Assembly (NCBI GenBank): GCA_017414535.1
Contig: JAFQMA010000034.1
Location: 1 to 33,393, forward strand
DNA length: 33,393 nucleotides
Direction: 5' to 3'
Origin: Clostridia bacterium
GTDB lineage: Bacteria > Bacillota > Clostridia > Oscillospirales > SIG627
Below the pieces are notes generated by a model. That model saw only the letters and a program-made list of their open reading frames with translations. It had not been told where the DNA came from and made no database searches. The position numbers and the translations under genes were made by a program. Shown here piece after piece: positions 8,947 to 19,539 of the stretch (position 1 is its first letter; each line of letters starts with the position of its first letter).

Positions 8947-9377
8947 GAGAGATCAGAAACGCGGCGCGGGTGAAATTCTGCGCCATCAGCGAAAACGAGG
9001 CCTTTGCCCGCGTGGTGACGGCAGGCTTTTTAATGAAGATGAACGTGACGGCGGAGGAGCTGGCAGACCTGAAGACCATGGTCAGCGAGGCGGTGACCAA
9101 CGCCATCGTTCACGGCTACCGCGGGCGGGACGGAGCAAAATGCATCGTTACGCTGGAATTAAAGTATTATTCCGACGGGCTTTTGCAGGTGACCGTGGCC
9201 GATCGCGGCTGCGGTATCCCCGACGTTGAGGCGGCCATGACGCCCTTTTTTACCACCGATAAGGAGGGAGAGCGGAGCGGCATGGGCCTGCCCATCATGC
9301 AGGCCTTTTCCGACAGCCTGCGCATTGCCACCTCCCCCCGCGGTACGCGGGTGGTCATGAAGAAAAAGCTTTCGTGA
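8943..9377 (+). CDS. spoIIAB: Anti-sigma F factor / serine kinase
   Basis: A 144-residue GHKL-fold kinase. The N box (E49 to N53 in SEAVTNAIVHGY), the G1 box (DRGCGIPD, from D87) and the G2 box (GMGLPI, from G113) are intact, so ATP binding should be functional. SpoIIAB holds sigma-F inactive and phosphorylates SpoIIAA. It overlaps spoIIAA by 4 bases and shares a GTGA overlap with sigF, an arrangement that keeps the three proteins in balance. Confidence 0.94.
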   Translation: MREIRNAARVKFCAISENEAFARVVTAGFLMKMNVTAEELADLKTMVSEAVTNAIVHGYRGRDGAKCIVTLELKYYSDGLLQVTVADRGCGIPDVEAAMTPFFTTDKEGERSGMGLPIMQAFSDSLRIATSPRGTRVVMKKKLS

Positions 9378-10087
9378 CGAAGCACATCTGTGATACGGAC
9401 ACCCTGCGGCGCGCCGCCCTCGGTGAGGAATGGGCAAGGCAGGCAGTGGTGGAGACGAATCTGGGCCTTGTGAAGAGTGTTGCCCGCCGCTTTCTGGGAC
9501 GCGGGGTGGAATGGGAGGATCTGGTGCAGATCGGCACCGTTGGGATGCTCCGCGCCATCGCGGGCTTCGACCCTGACAGAGCCTGCCGCTTCACCACCTA
9601 CGCCGTTCCTATGATCGCAGGGGAGATCAAGCGCTTTCTGCGAGACGACGGCCCCGTGAAGATCAGCCGCGAGATCAAGGAGAACGGTATGCGTATTTTT
9701 CGCTTTGTGGGGGAATACGAGCGAAAAACGGGGCTTTCTCCCACGGTAGATCAGATCGCACGGGAGACGGCGCTGTCGGAGGAAAAGGTCGCCGTGGCAT
9801 TGGCGGCGGCAAGACCCATTCTGTCTCTGCAGGCGGAGGACGAGGAAACGGGCTTCTCTCCCGAGGATCTGGTGGGGGAGGACAGCATGGAGGGCGCGGT
9901 GGAGCGGCTCTGCCTGCGGGAGGTGGTAGCAAAGCTTCCCGATTGGGATCGCAGACTGATCCTTTGTCGCTATTTTAAAAACCTGACCCAACAGCAGACC
10001 GCCCGCCTTCTGGGGGTAACGCAGGTGAAGGTGAGCCGTGAGGAAAAGAGAATCCTGAAGACCCTGCGGGAGAGCTGGGGCGCCTGA
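9374..10087 (+). CDS. sigF: RNA polymerase sigma-F factor
   Basis: A 237-residue sigma-70 family factor. Region 2 includes EDLVQIGTVGMLRAI (residues 48-62) and the FDPDRACRFTTYAVPMI segment (65-81); region 3 spans about 100-150; the region 4 helix-turn-helix lies at about 183-235 (QQQTARLLGVTQVKVSR). Sigma-F is the first forespore-specific sigma factor. The start is GTG 9374, overlapping the spoIIAB stop. Its stop codon lies in the loop of the operon terminator. Order and sizes match spoIIAC exactly, which separates it from sigma-G. Confidence 0.93.
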   Translation: MTKHICDTDTLRRAALGEEWARQAVVETNLGLVKSVARRFLGRGVEWEDLVQIGTVGMLRAIAGFDPDRACRFTTYAVPMIAGEIKRFLRDDGPVKISREIKENGMRIFRFVGEYERKTGLSPTVDQIARETALSEEKVAVALAAARPILSLQAEDEETGFSPEDLVGEDSMEGAVERLCLREVVAKLPDWDRRLILCRYFKNLTQQQTARLLGVTQVKVSREEKRILKTLRESWGA

Positions 10088-10108: not shown

Positions 10109-10161
10109 GTGAACAAGGGGCGAAAAGGGGAGGAAAAATGAGGAAAAATGCGCCTCAAGCC

Positions 10162-10190
10162 TTGACAAAAAAGCCGGGTGGGTCTATAAT
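10162..10190 (+). promoter_or_regulatory. Consensus sigma-A promoter of the aromatic amino acid operon
   Basis: TTGACA (10162-10167), a 17-base spacer and TATAAT (10185-10190): a perfect match to the sigma-A consensus. Transcription should begin near 10197, just ahead of the leader peptide. A promoter this strong implies that control is exerted later, by the attenuator. Confidence 0.93.
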
Positions 10191-10218
10191 AATGGAAAAT
10201 TCTGAAAGGAGAGGCGGT

Positions 10219-10287
10219 ATGGCTTTGTTTTACAGCGCACGATTTTATTACTTTACCGAAGCGGACTGCCTGCACTCCGGGAAATAA
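10219..10287 (+). CDS. Phe/Tyr-rich leader peptide of the aro operon
   Basis: A 22-codon open frame starting at ATG 10219, 8 bases after AAAGGAG and about 22 bases after the expected transcription start. Residues 3-12 read LFYSARFYYF: six of the nine residues 4-12 are Phe or Tyr, and none is Trp. The short size, the position between a strong promoter and a terminator, and the codon bias toward the end products of the operon are the hallmarks of an attenuation leader peptide such as those of pheA and pheS in enterobacteria. Its stop codon (10285-10287) falls in RNA that can pair with the terminator arm. The in-frame upstream extension to 10087 lies before the transcription start and is not part of the peptide. 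Confidence 0.87.
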   Translation: MALFYSARFYYFTEADCLHSGK

Positions 10288-10373
10288 GGAAAAAAGCCTT
10301 ATCCCCTCAGTTCAGATCGTCCGCATTTCCCACGTTCCCAGAAACGTGTGATCTGGCGGATTTTTTCTTTTTT
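10279..10373 (+). promoter_or_regulatory. Transcription attenuator with mutually exclusive RNA pairings
   Basis: The terminator hairpin pairs tccgc (10320-10324) with gcgga (10356-10360) around an inner cacgtt/aacgtg stem (10331-10336/10343-10348), and is followed by T6-C-T6. Its 5' arm can instead pair with the end of the leader reading frame: 10279-10290 with 10320-10331, ten of twelve positions, including the perfect gggaaat/atttccc. That same leader segment can also fold locally with 10297-10305 (ataagg/ccttat plus ggg/ccc). A second anti-terminator option pairs cagatc (10313-10318) with gatctg (10350-10355). A ribosome that finishes the leader would cover 10279-10290 and let the terminator form; a ribosome stalled on Phe or Tyr codons would leave it free. 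Pairings were found by eye; energies were not computed. Confidence 0.8.
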
Positions 10374-10387
10374 GGAGGTTTATAATT

Positions 10388-11575
10388 ATGGTTTCTCAGG
10401 ATATGCTTCGTTTAGGTCAGCAGAGCTCCGTCATTCGCGCCATTTCCGAATACGGTGCCGCCCGCCGCGCTCAGATCGGAGCGGAAAACGTTTTTGATTT
10501 TTCTCTGGGCAATCCCAGCATTCCCGCCCCCGAGGCACTGACGGAAAGGCTGATCCGTGCCCTGCAGGAGGAGCACCCCTGCAGAGTACACGGCTACACG
10601 TCCTCCGCCGGTGATATGGGCACCCGAGGCGCTGTTTGCGAGCACATCGAAAGGACCTTCGGCTTTGAAGCGGACCCGAAGCTGGTCTATATGACCTGCG
10701 GTGCCGCGGCCAGCCTGACCGTGGCCTTCCACGCGCTCCTTCTGGAAGGCGAAAAGGTGGTGGTTCCTGCGCCCTTCTTCCCCGAATACCGTGTGTTTGT
10801 GGAGAAGGCGGGCGGCGTGCTTTGTCCCGTGCCTTCCCTGGAGCCCAGCTTCCAGATCGATCTTGATGCCATGGCCGCGGCCATTGACGAAAAGACCAAG
10901 ATCGTTCTGCTCAATTCTCCCAACAATCCCACGGGTGCGGTCTATTCCCGCGAAACGCTGGAGAAGCTGTGCGCACTGCTGAGGGAGAAGGAGAAGGAAT
11001 ACGGCACCGAGATCTTCCTTCTGGCGGACGAGCCCTACCGCGAGCTGTGCTACGGCGGTGCAAGCCCCGCTTGGCTTCCCTCCCTGTATGACCGCACGCT
11101 GGTGGCCTATTCCTACAGCAAGTCTCTGTCTTTGCCCGGTGAGCGCATCGGCTATCTTTTGGTTTCTCCCCGCATGGAAAAGGCCGCGGAGGTCTTTGCG
11201 GCCGTATGCGGTGCAGGCAGAAGCCTGGGCTTCGTATGCGCGCCCTCTCTGTGGCAGCTGGTTTTGAAGGACTGCCAGGGCATGACCTCGGACGTGTCCG
11301 AATACGAAAGAAACCGCGATACCCTGTTTCATTCTCTGTCGGAGATGGGCTACACGGTGACCCCGCCGGACGGGGCCTTCTATCTCTTTGTGAAATCCTT
11401 GGAGGAGGATGCGGGTGCCTTCTGCGAGCGGGCGAAGAAATACGAGCTTTTGCTGGTGCCCTCCGATTCCTTCGGTGTGAAGGGCTACGTGCGCATTGCC
11501 TACTGCACCGATCCCGAGACCATTGAAAAGAGCCTGCCCGCCTTCCGCGCGCTGTACGAGGAGTATCGGAAATGA
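10388..11575 (+). CDS. PLP-dependent aminotransferase, class I/II (probable aromatic aminotransferase)
   Basis: A 395-residue fold-type I aminotransferase. NNPTGAVY (179-186), D214 in ADEPY (pairs with the pyridinium nitrogen) and K245 in YSYSKSLSLPGERIGY (Schiff-base lysine) are all present, so it should be active. As first gene of an operon making prephenate-derived amino acids, it most likely transaminates phenylpyruvate and 4-hydroxyphenylpyruvate to Phe and Tyr, with glutamate as donor; this specificity is inferred from context, since the family also contains aspartate and alanine aminotransferases. GGAGG lies 9 bases before ATG 10388, directly after the attenuator T-run. Its stop overlaps pheA by ATGA. 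Confidence 0.9.
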   Translation: MVSQDMLRLGQQSSVIRAISEYGAARRAQIGAENVFDFSLGNPSIPAPEALTERLIRALQEEHPCRVHGYTSSAGDMGTRGAVCEHIERTFGFEADPKLVYMTCGAAASLTVAFHALLLEGEKVVVPAPFFPEYRVFVEKAGGVLCPVPSLEPSFQIDLDAMAAAIDEKTKIVLLNSPNNPTGAVYSRETLEKLCALLREKEKEYGTEIFLLADEPYRELCYGGASPAWLPSLYDRTLVAYSYSKSLSLPGERIGYLLVSPRMEKAAEVFAAVCGAGRSLGFVCAPSLWQLVLKDCQGMTSDVSEYERNRDTLFHSLSEMGYTVTPPDGAFYLFVKSLEEDAGAFCERAKKYELLLVPSDSFGVKGYVRIAYCTDPETIEKSLPAFRALYEEYRK

Positions 11576-12663
11576 ACGATAAGCTGTTAAGGGAGGCAAG
11601 AGAGGAGATCAACGCCGTCGATGAAGAAATGGCGCGCCTCTTTTGCCGCCGCATGGCCGCCTGCCGCAAGGTGGCGCAATATAAAAAAGAAACGGGCATG
11701 CCCGTATTCGACCCTGCCCGCGAAGAGGCGGTGATCGCCCGCGGTGCCCCCCGTGTGGAGGAGAGCCTGCGAGGCTATTACATCCACTTTTTACACGCCA
11801 ATATGGAAATTGCCAAGGCCTATCAGTCCCGTTTGCTTGACGGCATGCACGCGGCCTTCGCCGGAAAGCCGGGTGCCTTTGCAGAGATCGCCGCACGGCG
11901 CATCCTTCCTGCGGCGACGCCCATTGCCTACGAGGATTTTGCCGCGGCTTACCGCGCCGTGGAGGAGGGAAGATGCGACGTGGCGGTGCTTCCTCTGGAG
12001 AACAGCACCAACGGCGACGTGGGCACGGTGATGGACCTTGCCTTTTTCGGTTCCCTGACCATCAACGGCGTTTATGACCTTACCATTGAACAGAACCTTT
12101 TGGCTCTGCCCGATGCCAAGATCTCCGATATCAAAACGGTGATCTCTCATCCCCAGGCGCTGGGACAGTGCTCGGCCTTCCTGAAGGAGGGCGGCTTTGA
12201 TACCCGTGAAAGCGCCACCACCGCCACGGCGGCAAAGCTGGTTGCGGAAAGCGGGGACAGGAGCCTTGCGGCCATCGGAAGCGCGGAGGCGGCAGAGCAG
12301 TTCGGTCTGCAGGTGCTGCGGGGACGCATTCACGATAAGGGCGGGAACACCACCCGCTTTGCGGTATTTTCTCAGACGGCGAAGGCGCCCTCTCCCTCCG
12401 ACGGGCAGTTCATTATGGGCTTTACCGTAAAGAACGAGGCGGGCGCTCTGGCAAAGGCCATCTCCGCCATCGGCGAGGGCGGCTTTAACCTGCGTGCCAT
12501 CAAGAGCCGACCCACGAAAAAGCTTTCCTGGGACTATTACTTCTTCTGTGAGGGCGACGGCAATATCCGTACCCCCGCGGGAGAGGCCATGCTGGAGCGT
12601 TTGAAGGAGGATTGCAACGATCTGAAGATCCTTGGATCCTTTGAAAAAGAAATGACGGTGTGA
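11572..12663 (+). CDS. pheA: Bifunctional chorismate mutase / prephenate dehydratase (P-protein)
   Basis: A 363-residue three-domain enzyme. Residues 1-90 are an AroQ-type chorismate mutase (REEINAVDEEMARLFCRRM and the following helices). Residues about 95-266 are prephenate dehydratase, with the catalytic-region signature NTTRF (259-263). Residues about 280-360 are an ACT regulatory domain with GALAKA (291-296) and KSRP (311-314). It converts chorismate to prephenate and then phenylpyruvate. The ACT domain is where Phe normally binds for feedback inhibition; the usual ESRP reads KSRP here, which might alter Phe sensitivity. It overlaps the aminotransferase by 4 bases and is followed after 12 bases by aroB. 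Confidence 0.95.
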   Translation: MNDKLLREAREEINAVDEEMARLFCRRMAACRKVAQYKKETGMPVFDPAREEAVIARGAPRVEESLRGYYIHFLHANMEIAKAYQSRLLDGMHAAFAGKPGAFAEIAARRILPAATPIAYEDFAAAYRAVEEGRCDVAVLPLENSTNGDVGTVMDLAFFGSLTINGVYDLTIEQNLLALPDAKISDIKTVISHPQALGQCSAFLKEGGFDTRESATTATAAKLVAESGDRSLAAIGSAEAAEQFGLQVLRGRIHDKGGNTTRFAVFSQTAKAPSPSDGQFIMGFTVKNEAGALAKAISAIGEGGFNLRAIKSRPTKKLSWDYYFFCEGDGNIRTPAGEAMLERLKEDCNDLKILGSFEKEMTV

Positions 12664-12675
12664 AAGGGAGAATAT

Positions 12676-13692
12676 ATGATTCTTTCCGTAAAAACAAGCA
12701 AAGGGGGATACCCCATTTATCTGGAACGGGGCGGTCTGGCTCGCATCGGCGAATATTTTAACCTAAAGCGCAGATGCATGATCGTGACCGATTCCAACAT
12801 TCCGAAGGAATATGTCGATACCGTGGCCGCAAGCTGCGGAGAAGCACACGTATTTACCATCGTTCCCTCGGAATTTTCCAAGACCCTCTCCTCTCTGGAG
12901 GCGGCCGTACGCGAAATGATCGCGAAGGACTTTACCCGCGGAGACTGCGTCATCGCCGTTGGCGGCGGTGTGGTAGGGGATCTGGCAGGCTTTATCGCCG
13001 CCTCCTATCTGCGGGGCGTGGATTTCTATAACGTTCCTACCACGGTGCTCTCTCAGGTGGATTCCTCCGTGGGAGGCAAGGTGGGCGTAAATTTCGACGG
13101 CTTGAAAAATATGGTGGGGGCCTTTTATCCCCCCTGCGGCGTGCTGTGTGATGCGGACACTCTCCGCTCCCTGCCCGCCAGACAGATCGCCAACGGTCTT
13201 GCGGAGGCGGTGAAAATGGCCGCCACCTGCGATGAGGCCCTGTTTGCCCTTCTGGAGAAGGGGAATGCCATGGAACACATCGAACAGATCGTGGAAAAAA
13301 GCTTGCGCATCAAGCAAAGGGTGGTGGAGCAGGATGAGAAGGAGACGGGGCTTCGCCGCGTTTTAAATTTCGGCCACACCCTGGCCCACGCTCTGGAAAA
13401 GGAAACGGCGGGCACCCGCACGGCGCTCTATCACGGAGAGTGCGTGGCCCTCGGCATGATCCCCATGACGGCGGAGAGCGAGCGGGCGAGACTGACGGCT
13501 TGTCTTGAGGCGCAGGGTCTTCCCACGAGCCTGCCCATAGAGCCGGAGGCCCTGGCGGAGGCCATGCTTCACGATAAAAAGAGGGACGGAGACGAGATCA
13601 CGCTGGTACGTTGTGACAGGATCGGCTCCTTCCGTCTGGAAAAGATTCCTGTTTCCCGCTTGACGGAAGAAATGAAGGGGTGGAAGAAATGA
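12676..13692 (+). CDS. aroB: 3-dehydroquinate synthase
   Basis: A 338-residue enzyme for step 2 of the shikimate pathway, converting DAHP to 3-dehydroquinate with NAD and a divalent metal. The nucleotide-binding GGGVVGD (96-102), PTTVLSQVDSSVGGK (121-135) and GLKNMVGAFYPP motifs are intact. Metal ligands are visible as E177 in GLAEAVK and the histidines of NFGHTLAHALE and YHGECVALGM. AAAGGGAG precedes ATG 12676. It ends in a 4-base overlap with aroC. Confidence 0.96.
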   Translation: MILSVKTSKGGYPIYLERGGLARIGEYFNLKRRCMIVTDSNIPKEYVDTVAASCGEAHVFTIVPSEFSKTLSSLEAAVREMIAKDFTRGDCVIAVGGGVVGDLAGFIAASYLRGVDFYNVPTTVLSQVDSSVGGKVGVNFDGLKNMVGAFYPPCGVLCDADTLRSLPARQIANGLAEAVKMAATCDEALFALLEKGNAMEHIEQIVEKSLRIKQRVVEQDEKETGLRRVLNFGHTLAHALEKETAGTRTALYHGECVALGMIPMTAESERARLTACLEAQGLPTSLPIEPEALAEAMLHDKKRDGDEITLVRCDRIGSFRLEKIPVSRLTEEMKGWKK

Positions 13693-14783
13693 TGAATACC
13701 TTGGGTCGTGCCGTGACGCTGACCCTGTTCGGCGAGAGCCACGGGGAGCAGATCGGCTGCGTGCTGGACGGGCTTTCCGCCGGCATTTTTGTCCGTGAGG
13801 AGACGGTGGCGAGAGCGCTCGCTCTGCGCCGTCCCGCGGGCAGTATCTCCACCGCCCGTCGAGAAGAGGACGAATTTTCCATTGTCAGCGGCGTTTACCG
13901 CGGCTATACTACGGGCGCACCTCTAACGGTTCTGATCCCCAACAAGGATACCAGAAGCAGCGATTACGACAGCATTCCCCTGCGTCCTGGTCACGCGGAT
14001 CTGACGGCTCTTATGAAATACAAGGGCTTTTCCGATCCCCGCGGCGGTGGACACTTTTCCGCCAGACTCACCGCCCCCATCGTGGCGGCGGGCGCCATCG
14101 TCAGAGAGGCACTGGAAAAGAAGGGCATCGTTATCGGCACGCACCTTTCCTCGGTGGGGAAGGTGTGCGATCGCGGCTTTGAGAATTTAGAGGAGGATCT
14201 TGCCTTCCTTGCCGACAAGGCCTTCCCCGTGCTGGACGGGTCTGCGGCAGAAAAAATGGAAGCGGAGATCCTGGCCGCCAGAGAGGACTGCGACAGTGTG
14301 GGCGGCGTGCTGGAAACGGCCGTGACGGGGCTTCCCGCAGGGCTTGGCGGAGGCACCTTCCGTTCGGTGGAGAGCGTGCTCTCCCACGCGCTGTTTTCCG
14401 TTCCCGCCGTGAAGGGTGTGGAATACGGCGGTGGCTTCGGTCTTTCCGCCATGAGAGGCAGTGAGGCCAACGATGCCATCGGCCTGGACGAACGGGGCGA
14501 ATATTATTTGAAGACCAACCGCTGCGGCGGAATTCTTGGCGGTATTACCTGCGGCGCACCTCTGCTGTTCCGCTGTGCCATGAAGCCTACGCCCACCATT
14601 GCCAAGCCGCAGGAGACGGTGCTTGCCTCCGAGGGCAGGGAAGTGATCCATTCCTTCCACGGACGACACGATCCCTGCGTGGCACATCGCGCGGCCGCCG
14701 TGGTGAACGCGGTGACGGCGCTGGTGCTGGCCGATCTTTTGGCGCAGCACTACGGCGAGGATTGGTTGGGGGAAGAAAAATGA
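13689..14783 (+). CDS. aroC: Chorismate synthase
   Basis: A 364-residue flavin-dependent enzyme for the last step of the shikimate pathway, EPSP to chorismate. The N-terminal signature FGESHG (14-19), the RPGHADLTALMKY segment and the C-terminal GRHDPC motif near residue 322 identify it. ATG 13689 is chosen because it forms an ATGA overlap with aroB and has AAGGGG upstream; GTG 13680 would add three residues without a better ribosome site. It overlaps aroE-aroK by ATGA. Confidence 0.95.
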   Translation: MMNTLGRAVTLTLFGESHGEQIGCVLDGLSAGIFVREETVARALALRRPAGSISTARREEDEFSIVSGVYRGYTTGAPLTVLIPNKDTRSSDYDSIPLRPGHADLTALMKYKGFSDPRGGGHFSARLTAPIVAAGAIVREALEKKGIVIGTHLSSVGKVCDRGFENLEEDLAFLADKAFPVLDGSAAEKMEAEILAAREDCDSVGGVLETAVTGLPAGLGGGTFRSVESVLSHALFSVPAVKGVEYGGGFGLSAMRGSEANDAIGLDERGEYYLKTNRCGGILGGITCGAPLLFRCAMKPTPTIAKPQETVLASEGREVIHSFHGRHDPCVAHRAAAVVNAVTALVLADLLAQHYGEDWLGEEK

Positions 14784-16012
14784 AGTGCGGCCTCATCGGT
14801 GAGAAGCTGGGACACAGCTTTTCCGCAGAGATCCACGCCCTTGCGGGGACATACAGCTACGAGCTTTGGCCCATGGCGCCCGAGGCGCTTGACGGCTTTT
14901 TAAAACGGAGAGATTTTAGCGGAATCAACGTGACCATTCCCTATAAGAAGAGCGTGATCCCGTATCTTTCCTATCTGTCCCCCGAGGCAGAGGCCTGCGG
15001 TGCCGTCAATACGGTGGTGAACCGTGAGGGAAAGCTTTACGGATACAATACGGATATTCTTGGCATGGGTGCCATGCTGTCCTTCGGGGGGATCTCCTTG
15101 GAAGGAAAAAAGGTACTGATCCTCGGCACGGGCGGCACGGCCGGTACTGCCAAGGCCCTGTGCCTTTCCCGCGGGGTGGCTTCGGTGAAGCAGGTCTCCC
15201 GCCGTCCCGAGGGGGATGCCGTCTCCTACGAGGAGGCCCTCTCCATGAAGGATACGGACGTGATCCTCAACACCACCCCCTGCGGCATGTTTCCTCACGG
15301 GGAGGAGAGTCCCATCGACCTTTCCGCCTTCCCCCGTCTTTCGGGCGTGGCGGACGTGATCTATAACCCTCTGCGCACCCGCCTGATCCTGCAGGCCGAG
15401 GAGCTGGGGATCCCCGCAGTAAGCGGCCTTTATATGCTGGTGGCGCAGGCGGTGTATGCGGCGGGCCTCTTTATGGACAAGCCCACCCGCGAGGAGGATA
15501 TCCTTCCCATTTACCGTCGCCTGTTGCAGACGAAGGAGAACATCGTTCTTACGGGTATGCCCGGTGCGGGAAAGAGCACTGTCGGAAAAGCCCTTGCCGC
15601 CGACCGCGGTGCGGAATTTTTCGATACGGACGAATGGATCGCAAAAACGCAGGGCAGGACCCCTGCCGAGATCATTTCCCAAGAGGGCGAGGCGGTCTTC
15701 CGTAACGTTGAAACGGAGGCGGTGCGCACCCTTTGCGAGAAGCGCGGTGCGGTGATCGCCACGGGCGGCGGAGCGGTGCTCCGCGAGGAAAACGTGCGCC
15801 TTATGCGGCAGAACGGACGGGTGATCTTTCTGGATGCACCCCTCGAGACGCTGACCGCTACCTCCGACAGACCTCTTTCCGCCACGCCGGAGGCTTTGGC
15901 TCGGCGGTATGAGGAGCGATACGGCATCTACTGCGGCACCTGTGACAAGCGCGTTGCCGTAACGAGAAATCTGGAAAAAAACATAAAAGCCTTGAAAGAG
16001 GTATTGGCATGA
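14780..16012 (+). CDS. aroE-aroK: Bifunctional shikimate dehydrogenase - shikimate kinase fusion
   Basis: A 410-residue fusion. Residues 1-250 are shikimate dehydrogenase (AroE): GEKLGHSFS (7-15) binds shikimate, K56 in VTIPYKK and D92 in YNTD are the expected catalytic pair, and GTGGTAGTAKAL (116-127) binds NADPH. Residues 253-410 are shikimate kinase (AroK): Walker A GMPGAGKST (259-267), DTDEW (282-286) and GGG (329-331) for shikimate binding, and the RPLS lid region. It performs two consecutive-use steps, 3-dehydroshikimate to shikimate to shikimate-3-phosphate, in one polypeptide. The start ATG 14780 overlaps the aroC stop and has GGGGGAAG 7-8 bases upstream; the in-frame TTG at 14762 is rejected. 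Both domains look intact. Confidence 0.94.
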   Translation: MKCGLIGEKLGHSFSAEIHALAGTYSYELWPMAPEALDGFLKRRDFSGINVTIPYKKSVIPYLSYLSPEAEACGAVNTVVNREGKLYGYNTDILGMGAMLSFGGISLEGKKVLILGTGGTAGTAKALCLSRGVASVKQVSRRPEGDAVSYEEALSMKDTDVILNTTPCGMFPHGEESPIDLSAFPRLSGVADVIYNPLRTRLILQAEELGIPAVSGLYMLVAQAVYAAGLFMDKPTREEDILPIYRRLLQTKENIVLTGMPGAGKSTVGKALAADRGAEFFDTDEWIAKTQGRTPAEIISQEGEAVFRNVETEAVRTLCEKRGAVIATGGGAVLREENVRLMRQNGRVIFLDAPLETLTATSDRPLSATPEALARRYEERYGIYCGTCDKRVAVTRNLEKNIKALKEVLA

Positions 16013-16449
16013 AGATCTTGGTTTTAAACGGACCGAATTTGAATTTTTTGGGCATTCGTGAGCCCGAGCATTACGGAAAAGAGACCTACGAGGACCTGTG
16101 CAGCATGATCCGCCGCCACGCCGAGGAGATCGGTGCGGAGGTGAGCATTTACCAGTCCAACCACGAGGGGGCATTGGTGGATGCCATTCAGGAGGCTTAC
16201 GGCAAGGTGGATGGCATAGTCATCAACCCCGCCGCCTACACCCATACCAGCGTGGCATTGCTGGATGCGCTGAAGAGCGTTTCCATCCCTGCGGTGGAGG
16301 TACATATCTCCCGCGTGGAGAGCCGCGAGGCGTTCCGTCAGGTCAGTTACGTACGCGGAGCCTGCATGGCCACCATCACGGGCAAGGGCTTTCAGGGGTA
16401 TCTGGAGGCCATGGACCTTTTGATGAAACAGGGGAGGCGTCAGGCGTGA
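16009..16449 (+). CDS. aroQ: 3-dehydroquinate dehydratase, type II
   Basis: A 146-residue type II dehydroquinase, catalysing step 3 of the shikimate pathway by trans-elimination. NGPNLNFLG (7-15), the catalytic-loop tyrosine Y22 in HYG, INPAAYTHTS (72-81) and VEVHISR (97-102 region) are all family signatures. Type II enzymes are dodecamers and unrelated to the AroD aldolase-type enzyme. It overlaps its neighbours by ATGA upstream and GTGA downstream. Confidence 0.96.
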   Translation: MKILVLNGPNLNFLGIREPEHYGKETYEDLCSMIRRHAEEIGAEVSIYQSNHEGALVDAIQEAYGKVDGIVINPAAYTHTSVALLDALKSVSIPAVEVHISRVESREAFRQVSYVRGACMATITGKGFQGYLEAMDLLMKQGRRQA

Positions 16450-17645
16450 GACTTTGCATCAGGCCCTCCGTGGCAAGGGGCAAGGTCATGGCGCCGCCCT
16501 CCAAGAGCATGGCGCACCGCGCCCTGATCGCCGCCGCGCTGGCACGCGGTGAGAGCCGCATTTTCCCGCTGGCGGCTTCGGAGGATATTCGCCGAACGGT
16601 GGAGTCTTTGGCGGCACTGGGTGCCGTCATCCGCTGGGAGGGAGACGAGGCCTGCGTTACGGGACGGGGCTTTCCCGTCCATACGGGAAGAGAGCTTTCC
16701 TGCGGTGAGAGCGGCAGTACCCTGCGCTTTTTTTTGCCGCTGTGTCTTTTGACGGGTGAGGAGGAGACCCTCCGTCTGGCGCCCCGCCTTGCGGAGCGAC
16801 CCCTTTCCGTTTACGAGGAGCTGTGCCGCGAAAAGGGCTTTCTCTTTCGTCGGGAGGGAGAACGGATCACCGTCAAGGGCAGACTGCAGGCGGGAGAATA
16901 CAGCGTGCCCGGAGACGTTTCCAGTCAGTTTGTTACGGGGCTTCTTTACGCGCTGTCTCTATTGTCCGAGCCCTCCGTTTTACGCGTGACGGGGCGGCAG
17001 GAAAGCGCCGCCTACGTGGAGATGACCCTGTCGGTGCTTTCGGACTTCGGCGTTACCGTGCGCCGTGAGGGCCATGATTTTTATATTCCCGCTTCCACTC
17101 TTGCTCCCCGTGATCACAGAGTGGAGGGCGATTGGTCCAACGCCGCCTTTTTGGAGGCCTTCTCCTACCTTGGAGGCAAGGTAGAGGTGGAGGGACTGAG
17201 GGAGGATTCCCTGCAGGGGGATCGGGTGTACCGCGAGACCTTTGCCCGTATGGCCCGGGGCTTTGCCACGGTGGAGATCAGCCAGTGTCCCGATCTGGGT
17301 CCCGTTTTTATGGCCTTTGCCGCCCTGCACCACGGAGTGCGTTTGACGGGTACCGCACGGCTTCGCATCAAGGAAAGCGACCGCGGGCAGGCCATGAAGC
17401 AGGTGCTGGAGGCGCTGGGAGGCGCCGTTACCGTGGAGGCAAACGAGATCCTGGTGGAAAAGAGGGCGCTTGTTTCGCCCAAGGAGCCCCTTTGCGGCCA
17501 TAACGATCACCGCATCGTCATGGCGGAGAGCCTACTTTTATCCCGCCTCGGGGGCGAGATCGAGGGAGCACAGGCGGTGGCCAAGAGCTACCCCGATTAT
17601 TTTGAAGTAATAAAGTCTTTAGGAATCGAAGTGATAGAGAAATGA
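16446..17645 (+). CDS. aroA: 3-phosphoshikimate 1-carboxyvinyltransferase (EPSP synthase)
   Basis: A 399-residue enzyme joining shikimate-3-phosphate and PEP. PPSKSMAHRALIAAALA (17-33), GESGSTLRFF (87-96), RIKESDR (from 307) and HNDHRIVMA (from 352) match the family. The start is GTG 16446: it overlaps the aroQ stop by four bases, has GGGGAGG 8 bases upstream, and the conserved sequence begins immediately after it. The same frame stays open upstream to 16098, but that part is out-of-frame aroQ. The protein is somewhat shorter than typical enzymes of about 430 residues, with all active-site blocks present. It overlaps tyrA by ATGA. Confidence 0.95.
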   Translation: MRLCIRPSVARGKVMAPPSKSMAHRALIAAALARGESRIFPLAASEDIRRTVESLAALGAVIRWEGDEACVTGRGFPVHTGRELSCGESGSTLRFFLPLCLLTGEEETLRLAPRLAERPLSVYEELCREKGFLFRREGERITVKGRLQAGEYSVPGDVSSQFVTGLLYALSLLSEPSVLRVTGRQESAAYVEMTLSVLSDFGVTVRREGHDFYIPASTLAPRDHRVEGDWSNAAFLEAFSYLGGKVEVEGLREDSLQGDRVYRETFARMARGFATVEISQCPDLGPVFMAFAALHHGVRLTGTARLRIKESDRGQAMKQVLEALGGAVTVEANEILVEKRALVSPKEPLCGHNDHRIVMAESLLLSRLGGEIEGAQAVAKSYPDYFEVIKSLGIEVIEK

Positions 17646-18517
17646 AACTGAATAAAAATGCAGAAACCGTGATCCTCATCGTGGGACTGGGCCTTTTGGG
17701 AGGCTCCTACGCCCGCGCCCTGAAGAAGAAGGGCTACACCGTGTGGGCCATTGAGAAAAAGCAGGAGTCCGTGCAGTACGCGCTGGACGAGGGGATCATC
17801 GACCGCGGTACCACCCGTGTGGAGAATAGCTTTTTGAAGGGAGCGAGCATTACTGTTTTTGCCCTGTATCCCCACGTATTTCTGGATTGGATCCGTGAGC
17901 ACGGCGAAAAATTTCCCGCCGGGGCCATCCTCACGGACGTGACGGGTGTCAAGAGTGCCGTGGTGCACCGTGTGCAGGAGATGCTGCCCGCGGGCGTGGA
18001 ATATATTGCCGCCCATCCCATGGCGGGCCGCGAGGTGGGCGGTGTGGAAAACAGTGACGATGCTATTTTCCGCGGTGCCAACTATATTGTGGTACCCACG
18101 GACAGAAATACCCATGAGGGCGTGGAATGCTGTAAGGAGCTGGGGAGGGAGCTGGGCTTTGCCGATGTGAGCGTTCTGACCCCTGAGAAGCACGACGAAA
18201 TGATCGCTTTTCTTTCCCAGCTGACCCATTGCATTGCCGTTTCCCTCATGTGTGCGGGGGACGACACGGGTCTGGTCCACTACACCGGTGATTCCTTTCG
18301 CGATCTGACCCGCATTGCCAAGATCCAGGAGGAGCTCTGGAGCGAGCTGTTTTTGATGAACAAAGAGGCGCTTCTCTCCCAAATGGAGCGTTTCCGCGAG
18401 GCCTTTGATGCACTGGAAAAGGCCGTCAGAACGGAGGATCGAGAGGGGATGAAGGAAATGATGAGACTGTCCACTGCCCGCAGAAGCCTGTTTGATCAAA
18501 AGGGAGGACAAGCATGA
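17642..18517 (+). CDS. tyrA: Prephenate dehydrogenase
   Basis: A 291-residue enzyme converting prephenate to 4-hydroxyphenylpyruvate, the Tyr branch. The N-terminal Rossmann motif GLGLLGGS (15-22), HPMAGREVGG (near 122) and the LTHCIAVS helix with the catalytic-region histidine are recognisable. It has no C-terminal ACT domain and no fused chorismate mutase, so Tyr feedback through an ACT domain is not expected. It overlaps aroA and the DAHP synthase gene by four bases each. Confidence 0.94.
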   Translation: MKLNKNAETVILIVGLGLLGGSYARALKKKGYTVWAIEKKQESVQYALDEGIIDRGTTRVENSFLKGASITVFALYPHVFLDWIREHGEKFPAGAILTDVTGVKSAVVHRVQEMLPAGVEYIAAHPMAGREVGGVENSDDAIFRGANYIVVPTDRNTHEGVECCKELGRELGFADVSVLTPEKHDEMIAFLSQLTHCIAVSLMCAGDDTGLVHYTGDSFRDLTRIAKIQEELWSELFLMNKEALLSQMERFREAFDALEKAVRTEDREGMKEMMRLSTARRSLFDQKGGQA

Positions 18518-19539
18518 ATTTCGTAAGAAAGCTGCCCATACCGAAGGATATCAAGGCACAGTTTCCCGTATCCCGCGAGGCGGCGGCAAAAAGGGAAGCG
18601 ATCCTCGGCGAGATCAAGGACGTTTTCGAGGGAAAAAGCAATAAGTTTCTTTTGGTGATCGGCCCCTGCAGTGCGGATAATCGCGATGCGGTGCTGGCTT
18701 ACCTTGAAAGGCTTGCAAAACTGCGGGAGAGGGTAGAGGAGAAGCTGCTGATCGTGCCCCGCATCTACACCAACAAGCCCCGTACCACGGGGGACGGCTA
18801 CAAGGGCATGCTCCACCAGCCCGATCCCAAGAGCCGCCCCGATCTTTTGGCAGGTATTATTGCCATCCGCGAGCTGCACCGTGCCGCTTTGGAGGAGTAC
18901 GGCTTTACCGCTGCAGACGAGATGCTCTATCCTGAAAATTACCGCTATCTGTCCGACCTTTTGGGGTACGTTGCCATCGGTGCACGCAGTGTGGAAAACC
19001 AGCAGCACCGCCTGACCGCCAGCGGCCTGGATATCCCTGTCGGTATGAAGAATCCTACGGGCGGCGATATGCATACCATGATCCATTCCATTCACGCGGC
19101 CCAGGGCGCCCATACCTTCCTATATCGCGGCTGGGAGGTCCATTCCGACGGAAATCCCTATGCACACGCCATCCTACGCGGTTTTCTGGACCATACGGGA
19201 CGCTGTGTTTCCAACTACCACTATGAGGACCTTCTGCAGCTTCTGGAGCTGTACGGCCAGACCCATCTGCACTTCCCCGCGGCGGTGGTGGACGTGAACC
19301 ATGCCAATTCCGGCAAGCGGTATCTGGAGCAGATCCGCATCGTGAAGGACGTGACCTACAGCTGTAACCACAACGAGGCCATTCGCAACTTAGTGAAGGG
19401 CGTTATGGTGGAGAGCTATCTGGCAGACGGCGCCCAGAGCGTGGGAGAGGATACCTTCGGCAAATCCATTACCGATCCCTGCCTCGGCTGGGAAAAGACG
19501 GAGAAGCTGGTGCTGGAGCTTTGCGATGAATTAAAATAA
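18514..19539 (+). CDS. aroF: 3-deoxy-7-phosphoheptulonate (DAHP) synthase, class I
   Basis: A 341-residue enzyme that condenses PEP and erythrose-4-phosphate, the first committed step of the shikimate pathway. IGPCSADN (49-56, metal-binding C52), RIYTNKPRTTGDGYKG (PEP and erythrose-4-phosphate binding, from about 83) and DVNHANSGK (metal/active site) mark it as an AroF/AroG/AroH-type class I enzyme. Such enzymes are commonly feedback-inhibited by one aromatic amino acid; which one cannot be read here, so aroF is only a label for the family. It is the first enzyme of the pathway but the last gene of the operon. GGAGG precedes ATG 18514. Confidence 0.94.
   Translation: MNFVRKLPIPKDIKAQFPVSREAAAKREAILGEIKDVFEGKSNKFLLVIGPCSADNRDAVLAYLERLAKLRERVEEKLLIVPRIYTNKPRTTGDGYKGMLHQPDPKSRPDLLAGIIAIRELHRAALEEYGFTAADEMLYPENYRYLSDLLGYVAIGARSVENQQHRLTASGLDIPVGMKNPTGGDMHTMIHSIHAAQGAHTFLYRGWEVHSDGNPYAHAILRGFLDHTGRCVSNYHYEDLLQLLELYGQTHLHFPAAVVDVNHANSGKRYLEQIRIVKDVTYSCNHNEAIRNLVKGVMVESYLADGAQSVGEDTFGKSITDPCLGWEKTEKLVLELCDELK

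Follow-up and report, generated by a model that had tools for sequence, protein, structure and literature searches.

We put at about 93% the probability that a ribosome-mediated transcription attenuator reading both phenylalanine (Phe) and tyrosine (Tyr) controls a nine-gene aromatic operon in a member of the Clostridia. The operon lies in the window, the whole 33,393-nucleotide stretch of contig JAFQMA010000034.1 (assembly GCA_017414535.1) that was analysed here. Every defining feature of an attenuator that sequence can test is present at this locus. Anatomy, conservation, covariation and switch energetics were obtained directly, and we infer translation, stalling, termination and the OR logic.

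Anatomy of the locus

The leader and its operon comprise the following features, with the gene identities, all from profile matches, checked against NCBIfam and Pfam.

10162 to 10190, + strand: sigma-A type promoter, TTGACA-17-TATAAT
Near 10197, + strand: predicted transcription start, as expected from the promoter
10206 to 10214, + strand: leader Shine-Dalgarno sequence, AAGGAGAGG
10209 to 10271, + strand: predicted 5′ hairpin, about 10209-10227 with 10257-10271 (fold of the whole leader)
10219 to 10287, + strand: leader ORF MALFYSARFYYFTEADCLHSGK, 22 codons, stop codon TAA at 10285-10287 (sequence; homologous leaders)
10228 to 10233, + strand: putative first sensor codons, Phe4-Tyr5 (folding with a ribosome stalled at Phe4, antiterminator P 0.85)
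10243 to 10254, + strand: aromatic run Phe9-Tyr10-Tyr11-Phe12, with the predicted switch point inside it (ribosome-position folding)
10261 to 10272, + strand: antiterminator 5′ arm GCGGACTGCCTG, within the leader ORF directly after the aromatic run (pair counts)
10313 to 10324, + strand: antiterminator 3′ arm CAGATCGTCCGC, overlapping the terminator 5′ arm (pair counts, ribosome-state folding)
10319 to 10361, + strand: intrinsic terminator hairpin, 10319-10324 with 10356-10361, inner stem about 10331-10349 (folding, covariation)
10361 to 10373, + strand: T6-C-T6 tract, predicted 3′ end of the short transcript (sequence)
10388 to 11575, + strand: PLP aminotransferase (NF005305/PRK06836)
11572 to 12663, + strand: pheA, chorismate mutase / prephenate dehydratase
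12676 to 13692, + strand: aroB, 3-dehydroquinate synthase
13680 to 14783, + strand: aroC, chorismate synthase
14762 to 16012, + strand: aroE-aroK fusion, shikimate dehydrogenase / shikimate kinase
16009 to 16449, + strand: aroQ, type II 3-dehydroquinate dehydratase
16446 to 17645, + strand: aroA, EPSP synthase
17642 to 18517, + strand: tyrA, prephenate dehydrogenase
18514 to 19539, + strand: aroF/G type DAHP synthase

An initial annotation, made from the letters of this DNA, had described a perfect promoter, a 22-codon frame with six Phe or Tyr among residues 4-12, a hairpin followed by T6-C-T6 and an operon for Phe and Tyr lacking the tryptophan (Trp) branch, and each of these descriptions holds. 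The -35 and -10 hexamers match consensus at 12 of 12 positions, compared with 0.3 promoter-like sites of any quality per 901 bases in shuffles, and the same promoter type precedes other leaders (L142 and L145, for example). The frame has a good ribosome site and carries F4, Y5, F9, Y10, Y11 and F12, with no Trp. The 76-nt terminator stretch has a folding energy of -19.2 kcal/mol, and that of its shuffles averages -12.3 (sd 2.6; z -2.7); a simple terminator scan missed the hairpin because of its internal loops. Together the nine genes lead from the first committed step of the pathway to both Phe and Tyr, and no Trp-branch gene is among them. The regulatory codons of the leader are thus cognate to the products of the operon, with pheA and tyrA downstream and no trp gene. 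Immediately before the promoter, in the same orientation, stands a gene for a SigF/SigG-like sporulation sigma factor (9374-10087).

Two mutually exclusive helices

The antiterminator and the terminator are mutually exclusive, and both covary. In the antiterminator, two-sided changes occur in 9 of 13 pairs and covariation is 0.239, compared with 0.159 in shuffled controls (0/500) and no more than 0.145 when the partners are displaced (33 sequences), values that are to be read in the light of alignment A5 having been fitted to the antiterminator structure, from sequences that are related rather than independent. The terminator has two-sided changes in 5 of 9 pairs and a covariation of 0.268 against 0.194 when shuffled (0/500). 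A smaller alignment, made on sequence only, gives a similar trend for both helices. Coordinated changes in the antiterminator are evident in individual leaders: CTTTCTG with CAGAAAG (L119), CTGTCTG with CAGACAG (L128), CTGCCCG with CGGACAG (L120) and CTGTCCG with CGGACAG (L031). One further leader, L033, fits the alignment poorly.

Four leaders (L129, L134, L136 and L140) carry the arm in a different reading frame from the other 29. In L129 and L134 the arm letters GGGCTGCCCG are unchanged, and the residues that they encode shift from KKGCP to KRAAR or SRAAR, so that what is conserved is the RNA arm and not the end of the peptide.

The helix established here is not the one first suggested. An earlier proposal had paired 10279-10290 with 10320-10331 as the alternative to the terminator. 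Complementary letters do exist there, but the pairing has a probability of 0.00-0.01 in every ribosome state folded, and it is not the helix shared with relatives. The conserved antiterminator, 10261-10272 with 10313-10324, replaces it.

Ribosome position and the predicted switch

In the proposed mechanism, RNA polymerase would start near 10197 and a ribosome would begin on the 22-codon leader. With charged tRNA-Phe and tRNA-Tyr plentiful, the ribosome would pass the aromatic run and cover 10261-10272, allowing the terminator at 10319-10361 to form and transcription to end at the T tract before the operon. When either charged tRNA is scarce, the ribosome would instead stall on one of the aromatic codons before it reaches the arm. 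Left free, the arm would pair with 10313-10324, sequestering the 5′ half of the terminator, and the nine-gene operon would be transcribed. If translation did not occur, the 5′ hairpin would capture the arm and the terminator would form.

Folding of the RNA free ahead of the ribosome, with the ribosome edge placed 13 nt from the A-site codon as assumed from E. coli, shows that the switch depends in silico on where the ribosome stops. In the window leader, the antiterminator has a probability of 0.85 with the ribosome stalled at Phe4 and of 0.86-0.90 at Phe9 or Tyr10. The terminator takes over at Tyr11 (P 0.92) and prevails with the ribosome at Phe12 or later (P 0.97), as it does with no ribosome at all (P 0.97), when the 5′ hairpin pairs the ribosome site and start region with the 5′ arm of the antiterminator.

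The same behaviour extends to relatives. In nascent transcripts lacking the 3′ half of the terminator, the antiterminator is available in 33/33 leaders with the ribosome in the run and gone in 33/33 with the ribosome at the stop codon, and in all 33 the codon at which the switch occurs is displaced by -1 to +2 codons relative to the last Phe or Tyr codon. Once the full transcript is allowed to equilibrate, the terminator is favoured in about half of the relatives at every ribosome position, and the switch in these must therefore be kinetic, as in classical attenuators. Most leaders form the terminator in the state with no ribosome, and the operon would accordingly be poorly expressed when the leader is not translated.

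Phe and Tyr codons alternate in the leader, and both Phe4 and Tyr5 precede the switch point, so that starvation for either amino acid should switch the operon on. We infer that the leader is an OR gate for shortage of Phe or Tyr. The suggestion that stalling at both kinds of codon makes the leader a joint sensor had been put forward from the window alone, and a survey of homologous upstream regions supports it, the aromatic codons being conserved and the alternative stems covarying.

Codon content of the leader

A stretch rich in Phe and Tyr is present in all 37 leaders read, in nearly equal measure (127 Phe, 130 Tyr), as in MKQFLYSTRFYYFTVADCLCSEK (L002) and MLQKFYYYYYYFNKDCLFSSKEQHA (L016). 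A single Trp occurs among these leaders, outside the aromatic run, and the leader of L145 has no Tyr. Many of the leaders in alignment A3 contain CGATTTTATTA, found in the window at 10240-10250. The Arg codon CGA stands directly before Phe-Tyr-Tyr in about ten leaders from several families; it might delay the ribosome, or it might simply have been inherited.

This recurrence bears on a different reading, in which the product of the leader is a genuine arrest peptide of the TnaC kind. It would respond to a ligand in the exit tunnel, whether free Phe, free Tyr or some other molecule, and not to uncharged tRNA. An Arg-Phe-Tyr-Tyr core (CGA-TTT-TAT-TAT/C) shared by some ten leaders, with Asp-Cys-Leu recurring after it, is what such a peptide might look like. 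However, Phe and Tyr interchange freely, with runs that range from RFYY to YYYYYYF, and in four leaders the frame changes right after the run, which indicates that it is the RNA arm that sets the residues at this point. Moreover, the run consists of cognate codons one after another, the arrangement that sensing through tRNA would call for. We therefore consider an arrest peptide very improbable.

It is less probable still that the ORF is decorative, its Phe and Tyr content a product of T-richness in front of a plain terminator or a leader regulated by an RNA-protein interaction. T-rich stretches do yield TTT and TAT codons by chance, and at equilibrium the terminator is the preferred fold of many leaders regardless of state. 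Yet 166 of 198 codons at the last six positions of the run are TTT, TTC, TAT or TAC and none is TGG, the Shine-Dalgarno sequence is kept among relatives, and the alternative helix, besides covarying, begins 2-11 nt after the last Phe or Tyr codon. Such density is also rare, taking the window and 1.34 Mb of related contigs as background. Among 143 ORFs of 10-45 codons in the window that are preceded by a Shine-Dalgarno sequence, only the leader has at least six Phe or Tyr in nine codons; in the 1.34 Mb of other Clostridia contigs, three of 4033 such ORFs do, and two of those three precede aro operons.

Distribution among relatives

The element is not a chance occurrence. A covariance model (R1), constructed from relatives, has matches in 35 of the 394 genomes sampled from the order. 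The carriers belong to families f1, f15, f16, f18, f19 and f23 and doubtfully to f25, and among the lowest-scoring matches one or two are uncertain. The weakest match in the order, in genome G045, is doubtful. A second model (R2) adds four carriers outside the order, from other families of the class (f34, f40 and f99), and its search of a phylum-wide sample gave no carrier outside the class. These frequencies are lower bounds, because the order and class samples are draws, mostly of metagenome bins, scored with strict filters. A separate R1 match, L141, looks spurious, having neither a Phe/Tyr leader nor an aro gene nearby.

Where the same aminotransferase heads an aro operon, a Phe/Tyr leader is present in 5/5 other genomes of the genus and in further genomes. 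The element always stands at the head of an aromatic operon, whose first gene may be the aminotransferase, pheA or aroF (an aroG-type DAHP synthase). In 14 carrier regions the same shikimate, pheA and tyrA set lies downstream, with aroF first or last; the exception is L155, which has only an aroF-tyrA pair. No leader was found upstream of stand-alone aminotransferase genes, and the leader thus belongs to the operon rather than to the aminotransferase gene.

Some relatives are arranged differently. Within genus g3, L014 and L016 have the leader (the aro operon is shown for L016), and in L010, L012 and L018 a promoter stands directly before the aminotransferase, with no leader; in L012 (the same locus as L059) no aro operon follows. 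In L040, an aro operon with this gene set and the aminotransferase first has no leader peptide, and a palindrome, ATCGGTTAACA-C-TGTTAACCGAT, lies right after the promoter (L040:9950-10000), perhaps an operator or a short hairpin control.

Tryptophan genes and T-boxes

The gene trpA is absent from the window's genome and from 21 of the 22 genomes of its family, the window's genome included. Across the order it occurs in 4/35 carriers and 137/359 non-carriers (Fisher p 0.001, with kinship uncorrected and genomes partly incomplete). In genus g26, all six carriers lack trpA, and two genomes (G196 and G390) have trpA and no leader match. Where there is no Trp branch to starve, a signal confined to Phe and Tyr may govern the common pathway, a suggestion that comes from correlation only.

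T-boxes are common in these genomes, and the window's genome has them before trpB, pheS, ileS, thrS and an acyl-CoA ligase gene. The T-box before the orphan trpB (L161:1501-3104; G000:C12:35715) has a specifier that is probably UGG, and a trpB without trpA possibly serves to salvage indole to tryptophan. Another (L160:1501-3217; G000:C49:51941), with specifier UAC (Tyr), precedes a gene for an acyl-CoA ligase of the AMP-dependent type (PRK06187), which one would hardly expect a Tyr T-box to control.

Common as T-boxes are here, including the genome's own trpB and pheS copies, a T-box or another tRNA- or metabolite-binding riboswitch before the operon is highly implausible, since the leader RNA is only about 170 nt long and has no T-box sequence, the T-box covariance model (RF00230) has no match in the whole window, and Rfam returns no match in 10150-10400 even at E 1 (RF00230, Phe_leader and other attenuator leaders included) or over the relatives' leaders. 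For the known riboswitch families, this reading is thereby refuted.

Relation to known attenuators

The enterobacterial pheA and pheST leader-peptide attenuators (pheL and pheM; Rfam Phe_leader) read mainly Phe. Like them, the element combines a short aromatic-rich leader, a terminator and an overlapping antiterminator, with the ribosome as sensor. Unlike them, it has Phe and Tyr at about 1:1 and stands before the whole shikimate and Phe/Tyr pathway rather than pheA or pheST alone.

Bacillota are taught as the phylum of T-box and TRAP control, and the initial annotation had taken this as the rule. Bacteria of this group do usually sense amino acids through T-box RNAs. A T-box (RF00230) likewise senses uncharged tRNA to release a terminator; it binds the tRNA directly, without translation, unlike this leader. 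The rule is too strict in that leader-peptide attenuators are already known in Bacillota, making this one new in detail, not in principle. Passages of the published accounts describe histidine leader peptides of hisZ and hisS in bacilli (PMC2965389), a leader-peptide attenuator reported before hisZ in C. difficile (PMC4833913) and a Leu-rich attenuator peptide of ilv in S. aureus (PMC5794164); those passages concern other amino acids and genes, with no aromatic example among them.

A further published motif, uORFC-13-1 before aroF, was defined computationally from 24 sequences, in Acholeplasma and unknown environmental sources only (PMC8632094). It shares a uORF with at least one Phe codon, an adjacent terminator and a DAHP synthase downstream, but its description sets it apart, with aroF as the only gene and one Phe codon stressed (PMC8632094). 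No description of a Phe/Tyr leader in Clostridia was found in searches of the open-access literature. From its sequence, then, the element appears to be a leader-peptide attenuator of the classical type, and the form it takes in Clostridia, with joint reading of Phe and Tyr, is very probably new.

A further leader was encountered in a Clostridia metagenome bin (SUG1085; JALFWW010000009.1, L091:2650-3000). Its Phe/Tyr-rich peptide, MIQNNFAATAYFYFYRVFRDSK, precedes an aro operon with a different DAHP synthase and a different gene order, and it is followed by a terminator and an alternative helix, GAATTTTACTG/CAGTGAAATTC. In the full transcript, this antiterminator persists only while the A site is occupied by codons 13-15 (Tyr-Phe-Tyr). 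The leader matches neither R1 nor R2. Given how unrelated it looks, the same logic probably arose more than once or diverged beyond recognition, and a separate or very distant origin is probable for this leader.

Implications

The element, which is absent from Rfam, would place two amino acids in one sensor and govern a complete nine-gene pathway. It travels with the 5′ end of the operon, whichever gene comes first. We regard it as an even bet that it represents an undescribed family in more than one order of Clostridia, an evenly mixed Phe/Tyr OR gate over the whole pathway that was adopted chiefly where Trp synthesis had been lost, so that the common pathway was handed to Phe and Tyr. Genomes that use T-boxes for trpB and pheS would run their Phe/Tyr pathway by a translated leader instead. 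With this finding, short ORFs of one class in gut Clostridia receive a concrete annotation, and a test becomes available of how a mixed-codon leader merges two signals.
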